Below, piece by piece: positions 6,408 through 8,797 of a stretch of 37,523 nucleotides of DNA. The stretch lies in the IMG/VR virus record IMGVR_UViG_3300041409_000622, positions 1-37,523 of that record; one strand, given 5' to 3'. The stretch is from a virus. A program made the translations under genes and the position numbers. The notes under the pieces are model-generated. The model worked only from the letters and a program-made list of their open reading frames with translations, was not told the origin of the DNA and made no database searches. The stretch's first letter is position 1; each line of letters begins with the position of its first letter.

Positions 6408-6473
6408 GGAAGGGATGAAGCTTGTAAATTGATAATGTCGTGTCGGGATATTTAGCTGTCAGAGAGCAATAGA

Positions 6474-6588
6474 TGGAGGAAGCGGGCGAGGATTTGAACC
6501 TCGCAGGTGGGCATCTAAAGCCGACCTACTACACGCGATTTCGGAAGTGTGCCTACGTCTTTCACTGCGCCCCTTGCGCCACCGCTTC
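6474..6588 (-). tRNA. tRNA-like element with UAG loop, oversized
   Basis: On the minus strand GAAGCGG (6588-6582) pairs with CCGCTTC (6485-6479). A T-arm GCGAGG-TTCAAAT-CCTCGC (6504-6486) sits directly against it and the 3' side ends CTCCA. An arm GGTCGGC-TTTAGAT-GCCCACC (6526-6506) has a seven-base loop with UAG at 34-36, which would read CUA/CUG leucine. The bases TGGCG-CAA after the acceptor also resemble tRNA-Leu. Oddities: about 55 bases lie between acceptor and anticodon arm instead of about 19, the T-stem has 6 bp, and no long variable arm follows. It may be a diverged phage tRNA, an intron-bearing one, or a tRNA mimic. Confidence 0.5.
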
Positions 6589-6646
6589 TATCCATCTGCG
6601 GTCATTGTCTCATGCCGCAGAAAACCTGCAAGCAAGTTATCAACAG

Positions 6647-7921: not shown

Positions 7922-8002
7922 GGTTGTTCCGTTTACGGCGGGCGGCACGCAAGCAGCGCTGTCAACGATTCGGCCTCTACTTGCCTCGTCGCTCGCCAAT
8001 AT

Positions 8003-8797
8003 ATGAACGCATTAATCGTCGGCGCCAACAAAACACCTATCCTCGACCATGTGGAATCGTCTCATTTTTTGCTCGTCGATGACGGCTCCGTGATTGACGC
8101 ACTGGTCATTCCTCCAAGAAGGAAGGTCGTCCATTTCGATGTCAGAAAGCACCACCTCAACCCGCTGCACGAAATGGATTACAGGCGGGCGCGGGAGTTC
8201 GTTTCAATACTCGACGCGATTTTCCCTGAAGGCGACAGCACGCTGACGAAGAAGAACGCCAATTTCGTTTTGCTCAACGCCCTCCTCGAAGAACCTACGC
8301 GGCTCGACAAGCTCCTGCGTGGCGACAAGCGCGACCCTGCGAAACAGGACGCCTACCAGAAGATAGCAACGCTGCTCCTGTCCCCGGTGCTGCACTCAGT
8401 GCTGTGCAAGCCGACGAATTTTTCAATGAAAGGCATTGTGCTGGCGCGGCTCGACCGTGCGGTGCTGGGAGATTTCGATGCGTTCGTTCTCGCCAACCTG
8501 CTCATCTCGCAATTCGAGGGACAGGTGATAATCCCGGACTTCGGCTTCTACGGTCGCGAGCACCACATCTCGCTTATCAGGCAAGACAGGCTTGTGGCCG
8601 GCGTCAATACGCTGTCACAGGTGCGGTCGGATGTTCTGCGGGACGCGCTTCTGACGATACCGAAGAGGATCCCCTCGTGTGCGCTATATGATGACGCGGA
8701 GCTGTTAGCGAAGTACGCGGGTCTGCGGCCTGACCCGACAAGGGAGGACAATCCGTACAACCGGTTCGTCAACGAAGCGATGGGCGTCGCGGCATAA
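8003..8797 (+). CDS. HerA/TraG-like protein without P-loop
   Basis: A 264-residue protein. The N-terminus ALIVGANKTPILD then FLLVDDGSVIDALVIPP and VVHFDVRKHHLNPL resembles the region after Walker A in VirD4/TraG/HerA-type ATPases (x-x-FD-x-x-x-x-x-NPL). Later parts FSMKGIVLARLDRAVLGDFD and GQVIIPDFGFYGREH resemble the sensor and a Walker B-like strand. No GxxxxGK[ST] P-loop is present, so it is either truncated, non-catalytic, or a phage-specific relative. It follows the zinc protein on the same strand. Conserved phage hypothetical is the safer name. Confidence 0.4.
   Translation: MNALIVGANKTPILDHVESSHFLLVDDGSVIDALVIPPRRKVVHFDVRKHHLNPLHEMDYRRAREFVSILDAIFPEGDSTLTKKNANFVLLNALLEEPTRLDKLLRGDKRDPAKQDAYQKIATLLLSPVLHSVLCKPTNFSMKGIVLARLDRAVLGDFDAFVLANLLISQFEGQVIIPDFGFYGREHHISLIRQDRLVAGVNTLSQVRSDVLRDALLTIPKRIPSCALYDDAELLAKYAGLRPDPTREDNPYNRFVNEAMGVAA

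Follow-up and report, generated by a model that had tools for sequence, protein, structure and literature searches.

A tRNA-like element at a predicted phage transcript start is probably a diverged member of a family of tRNA-mimicking phage RNAs

The window analysed here (the whole stretch of 37,523 nucleotides, positions 1 to 37,523 of the IMG/VR virus record IMGVR_UViG_3300041409_000622) holds on its minus strand an oversized tRNA-like fold with a UAG loop, for which a first-pass annotation, made from the letters alone, had offered three readings: an intron-bearing phage tRNA-Leu, a decayed tRNA, or a tRNA mimic. Which of these is it, and has the fold been kept in other phages? The parts of the element and the signals on either side of it are listed in the order of the minus strand; R is a syntenic relative, and L127 and L126 are two further relatives.

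6604..6612 (-): extended -10 element TGAGACAAT, a conserved sequence 7 nt upstream of the outer stem
6471..6597 (-): whole element (tRNA-like core enclosed by the outer stem), seen in the fold, with the same shell in R
6591..6597 (-): outer stem, 5' arm AGATGGA, 7 bp, pairing with 6471-6477; same pairing in R and L127
6582..6588 (-): acceptor 5' strand GAAGCGG, where the family-model match starts
6567..6581 (-): TG plus degenerate D-arm GCGC AAGGG GCGC; the model aligns these bases to the D-stem
6505..6566 (-): segment in place of the anticodon domain, from the fold, holding both interior hairpins
6531-6550 (-): ACAC/GTGT hairpin, from the fold, inside the anticodon-replacing segment
6506-6526 (-): UAG-loop hairpin, loop TTTAGAT, one C-C mismatch, from the fold, inside the same segment
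6486..6504 (-): T-arm, 6-bp stem GCGAGG/CCTCGC with loop TTCAAAT; the 6-bp T-stem and its GG/CC top recur across the family
6479..6485 (-): acceptor 3' strand CCGCTTC, where the family-model match ends
6471..6477 (-): outer stem, 3' arm TCCATCT, pairing with 6591-6597 as for the 5' arm
6457..6468 (-): boxA-like motif TGCTCTCTGACA, one mismatch to TGYTCTTTRACA, just after the outer stem

On the minus strand the order is AGATGGA-TA-GAAGCGG-TGGCGCAAGGGGCGC...GCGAGG-TTCAAAT-CCTCGC-CCGCTTC-C-TCCATCT, with the internal loop TA/C separating the outer stem from the acceptor. The minimum-energy fold of 6465-6600 (-52.2 kcal/mol) contains all named stems, and the outer 7-bp repeat with its 1/2-nt internal loop, the 7-bp acceptor, the 6-bp T-stem and the ACAC/GTGT hairpin all lie where the annotation had placed them. 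The folding energy alone is only modestly beyond chance (z -2.4, equalled by 4 of 200 shuffles). That the element is beyond chance follows from the syntenic homologue R with the same shell, from the compensated outer stem of L127, and from a covarying RNA family whose model finds the window element. The tRNA and tmRNA finders that had been proposed as a check came back negative: ARAGORN called no tRNA or tmRNA in the window with the intron search on or off, and Rfam 15 gave no match to the element at gathering thresholds; at E 10 it returned just two chance matches, one the size of a T-arm and one to a CRISPR repeat, and no tRNA, tRNA-Sec or Y-RNA match for the window. The D region of the window retains only TGGCG and a 4-bp D-like stem of the D-arm TGGCGGAATAGGTAGACGC, the discriminator base is not A, and CCA is not encoded where a tRNA gene would have it. 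An alternative 10-bp pairing of CGCCCGCTTC with the downstream GAAGCGGGCG was discarded (8 of 200 shuffles were as good in the window, and it is absent from R and L127).

R (contig IMGVR_UViG_3300044691_000847), found via the neighbouring 212-aa protein, has the same outer stem and acceptor at the syntenic site, beside the same genes. It agrees with the window at 91% of 68 bases spanning the 5' flank and the element start and at 97% of 29 bases at the element 3' end, and the comparison shows homology, with fold and position conserved. Between the shared stems R carries a textbook tRNA-Leu D-arm, TGGCGGAATAGGTAGACGC; its interior has a short hairpin, ATGG-GTCTAGA-CCAT, its T-loop is interrupted by an insertion of ~28 nt, and its fold is equalled by 0 of 200 shuffles (z -4.4). 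A motif, CAGTGAAANACGT (window 6555-6568, minus strand), is common to the window D region and the T-loop insertion of R (L101, minus strand), at different places in the fold. In the second relative, L127, the 2/1 internal loop is kept and the outer stem reads AGGACAG/CTGTCCT; relative to the window both bases are changed in five of its seven pairs, so that pairing is restored. Inside it lie a 4-bp GCGG/CCGC inner stem, a GCGAG/CTCGC hairpin and an unrelated interior; the family model gives no full match in L127, where only the outer shell is kept. The third relative, L126, has the promoter region as in the window and lacks the element. An outer extension of at least 7 pairs was reached by 1.4% of shuffled flanks (any small internal loop allowed) and the best extension in other family members is 6 pairs, which makes the outer stem a feature of the window clade. 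Pattern matches in L103-L106 and L188 were set aside as unrelated, apparently coding sequence.

R and L126 have the extended -10 element TGAGACAAT with identical spacing, and L127 has TGAGAAGAT; in the window, R and L127 the outer stem starts with an A 7 nt downstream of this element. A consensus promoter scan called no promoter for the element, so that promoter and start are predictions, the promoter call resting on the conserved extended -10; on this prediction the outer stem begins at the transcription start in three phages. The boxA-like motif has counterparts at the same place in R (TGTTCTTTGACA) and L127 (CGATCTTTGACA), with a similar one in L126. Across the whole window boxA-like matches are no commoner than chance, and only the fixed position speaks for this putative boxA.

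A search of phage records with the element of R (its D-arm) retrieved 51 records, mostly of Bacillota phages; among the matches listed, none overlaps an annotated feature and all fall in the D-arm region. The hosts of member phages belong to Bacillus, Listeria, Enterococcus, Lactobacillus, Leuconostoc and Weissella, metagenomic phages also have members, and SPP1 and phi3T carry unannotated ones. Six of the first eight regions examined and most later ones (bounds set by script) share one layout: a 7-bp acceptor of variable sequence, the D-arm TGGCGGAATAGGTAGACGC, a variable 28-152 nt in place of an anticodon arm, usually ending CAT or AT, and then a 6-bp T-stem, the loop TGCAAAT and the acceptor 3' strand; CCA is not encoded at its usual place. 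This architecture is common to 20 extracted members; T-loop position 55 is G in most members, and acceptor and T-stem form a 7+6 stack of 13 bp family-wide. In an alignment of 20 members (A3; window, R and L127 not included, and the tRNA-Leu-like look-alikes L200 and L207 excluded from the family), 97.5% of cells are paired, against about 35-43% in slid-structure controls; 11 of the 16 pairs changed on both sides, with 86 doubly changed cells, and the covariation of 0.715 (shuffled, 0.174 +/- 0.023) was reached in 0 of 500 shuffles. The annotation had named a lack of homologues with conserved stems as refuting; such homologues exist. Genes 9 and 11 of SPP1 flank the element of that phage, and several Bacillota siphophages carry theirs just 3' of an ArpU-type late regulator and 5' of packaging/terminase genes. 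One record, G042 (IMGVR_UViG_3300021255_001778), holds two members, at 57107-57251 and 65746-65859. Neither ARAGORN nor Rfam 15 recognises the members, and the family is absent from Rfam 15; in the open-access literature the signature sequences gave only unrelated matches, and a search by topic found no description. A phage RNA family with the elbow and acceptor of tRNA-Leu and a replaced anticodon part is apparently undescribed.

Does the window copy belong to this family? A covariance model (R1) built from A3 without the window matched it at exactly 6588-6479 with 42.3 bits (E 5e-10 over 273 kb). R scored 53.1 bits, three phages chosen by T-arm only (L002, L003, L006) scored 55.9-64.5 bits, and L114, a canonical member whose terminase is 61% identical to that of the window, scored 66.8 bits. 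Since genuine tRNA-Leu genes attain up to 41.6 bits with this model, the window score of 42.3 is by itself indecisive, and membership rests on orthology with R, a clear member, through synteny and flanking identity. The window has the 7-bp acceptor adjoining a 6-bp T-stem with the GG/CC top; its T-loop is TTCAAAT, not TGCAAAT. The same TTCAAAT loop is found in L002, L003 and L006, which nevertheless score well, so TGCAAAT is common in the family and not defining. The D-arm of the window has diverged from the canonical one, which R retains. The window element has a real, conserved fold and, by orthology with R, is probably a diverged member of the family.

In most members the segment replacing the anticodon domain is able to fold as an H-type pseudoknot, with the second stem ending 1-3 bases before the T-stem; the pieces in SPP1 are CCTC, TACGGG, GAGG and CCCGTA. 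Under positional constraints the pseudoknot scores of 24 members added up to 485 against 309 +/- 42, above all 300 shuffles; the constraints were picked after a first, looser run had been seen, so this result is suggestive and not independent. L114, L002 and L006, which were outside the first run, also give a pseudoknot, and L003 does not; the window copy and several other members have no significant pseudoknot under the family constraints. The pseudoknot is a tendency of the family and does not define it. The UAG loop that the annotation had placed on an arm with one mismatch is present in the window; nothing in R or in the family corresponds to it, and it is therefore unlikely to be an anticodon.

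These comparisons bear differently on the readings first proposed and on two further ones. A functional tRNA-Leu with anticodon UAG and an intron in the D-arm region would account for the TTTAGAT hairpin loop, the canonical TTCAAAT T-loop and the tRNA-Leu-like D-arm of R, and the family does resemble tRNA-Leu in its D-arm sequence, its 7-bp acceptor and a T-arm able to form an elbow. We nevertheless regard it as highly improbable. R lacks the TTTAGAT loop (its candidate is GTCTAGA) and has its insertion in the T-loop instead, and the family, unlike tRNA-Leu, has neither a conserved anticodon arm nor a class II variable arm. A normal anticodon arm interrupted by an intron is seen in none of the relatives; the anticodon domain is swapped for unrelated segments of 28-152 nt. 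A T-stem of 6 bp, G55 in most members, a discriminator that is not A in the window, the missing CCA at the normal position and the ARAGORN and Rfam results given above argue in the same direction. The 13-bp stack, which the annotation had compared with tRNA-Sec, is real and a hallmark of the family, but bacterial tRNA-Sec has an 8+5 stack and a UCA anticodon and the window has 7+6 and no UCA loop. A suppressor tRNA of a recoded phage (the R loop reads CUA) was considered and dropped: TAG read as sense joins no structural gene convincingly. A decaying tRNA gene or an old integration scar without present function fits the survival of different tRNA parts in the window, R and L127, and an element lost from, or never in, L126. 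This is unlikely for the locus, where five compensated pairs rebuild the outer stem in L127 and three phages have the element at the predicted transcript start, and it is a poor fit to the family, in which covariation conserves the canonical members and compensating changes keep acceptor and T-stem; decay of the window copy alone, with its diverged D-arm, is possible.

The main alternative is a cis-acting leader that would recruit an antitermination complex through structured RNA and boxA, the tRNA likeness being only ancestral. HK022 put, lambda nut and the boxA leaders of rRNA place structured RNA near the transcript start together with boxA, and in the window, R and L127 the element likewise lies between the predicted promoter and the boxA-like motif; large hairpins follow in R, L126 and L127, and the divergent gene at 8003 has a boxA-like leader as well. 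Against this, the window contains no more boxA matches than chance would give, and in L126 the boxA-like motif is present although the element is missing; the window fold is tRNA-like, unlike those leaders, with antitermination here putative. Members elsewhere, which are not known to be promoter-proximal, are intergenic and away from early promoters, as in SPP1 between genes 9 and 11. We consider this reading unlikely. YrlA RNAs pair their 5' and 3' ends into a stem and have a domain that looks like the D, T and acceptor arms of a tRNA (PMC8394870), and the tRNA-like domain has been suggested to be a competitive inhibitor of an anticodon nuclease (PMC7790460). The family shares such an anticodon-less domain of D, T and acceptor arms with YrlA (PDB 6CU1, as described in PMC8394870), and the terminal stem is shared by the window clade only, a layout that would suit a tether for an Rsr/Ro-type protein. 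Such a tether is quite improbable: no TROVE/Ro-type protein and no Ro/Rsr gene was found among the window proteins scanned, the Rfam Y-RNA models were unmatched, most family members lack the outer stem, and the family differs from YrlA in the internal pseudoknot of most members and in a D-arm sequence fixed as that of tRNA-Leu.

The tRNA mimic is the option of the original three that the covarying family with its replaced anticodon domain supports, and we put at roughly 0.6 the probability that the element belongs, as a diverged member, to a family of noncoding phage RNAs that mimic tRNA without being tRNA. The leucine-type acceptor stem, D-arm and T-arm would build a tRNA elbow, and a variable segment, apparently a pseudoknot in most members, would take the place of the anticodon domain. 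In tmRNA the anticodon arm is replaced by a long insert with one or more pseudoknots, enclosed by acceptor and T-arm, and the family resembles it in a long pseudoknotted insert within acceptor and T-arm; unlike tmRNA, it has an intact D-stem, no tag reading frame that we could see, no fixed acceptor identity pair, no encoded CCA and no ARAGORN or Rfam call. In the window clade a promoter directed at the leftward small-gene operon would transcribe this RNA first; the extra outer stem would close the 5' end of the RNA, and the boxA-like motif follows. Mistaken for a tRNA, it may dock onto a host tRNA-handling protein, candidates being RNase P, RNase Z, a tRNA-modifying enzyme, PNPase or a tRNA nuclease; freed as a stable tRNA-like RNA, or capping the 5' end of the transcript, it could act as a decoy or as a processing or protection element. 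A role through tRNA-handling host proteins is likely, as an inference. We would give even odds to the broader proposal of a widespread class of pseudoknotted tRNA mimics in tailed phages, in which the elbow captures a host protein that handles or attacks tRNA and the replaced domain is the effector. The elements escape tRNA finders and Rfam despite their presence in the laboratory phages SPP1 and phi3T, in phages of many Bacillota and in metagenomic phages, and a natural RNA with a tRNA elbow and a swapped anticodon domain would reveal which parts of tRNA are recognised by host enzymes and defences.

Several other features were seen near the element and in its relatives. The palindrome AACTCGCTTGCGAGTT (L126 4790-4820 and 5000-5050; window ~6600-6640) adjoins the promoters of the small basic-protein gene and the leader and looks like a shared operator. 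Large leader hairpins with the arms GTGAGTTTGGAGG...CTCCCAGCTCAC (L126 4400-4790, L127 4990-5320, L100 4560-4830) form tandem repeats 3' of the boxA-like motif and are mostly gone from the window. The gene at 8003-8797 (plus strand) has a structured 5' leader (window 7930-8010, plus strand), which also lies upstream of its homologues in L100, L113, L126, L127, L128, L130, L131 and L132; in R, L126 and L127 this leader has a boxA-like GCTCTTTGTTT and then a long hairpin with a conserved ...TCTAC..., and counterparts of the hairpin persist even at 43-48% protein identity. The product (264 aa) has no Pfam or PHROG match; it is 44-81% identical to proteins in five viral contigs, occurs also in Bradyrhizobium and Sphingomonas assemblies, and in its C-terminal half resembles, by eye, the Walker-B regions of TraG/VirD4-type ATPases, with no Walker A. 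Very long imperfect intergenic hairpins, starting with CTGTTCGTC and ending with GACGAACAG, are found in two distant relatives (L128 1580-1800, L130 4490-4720).
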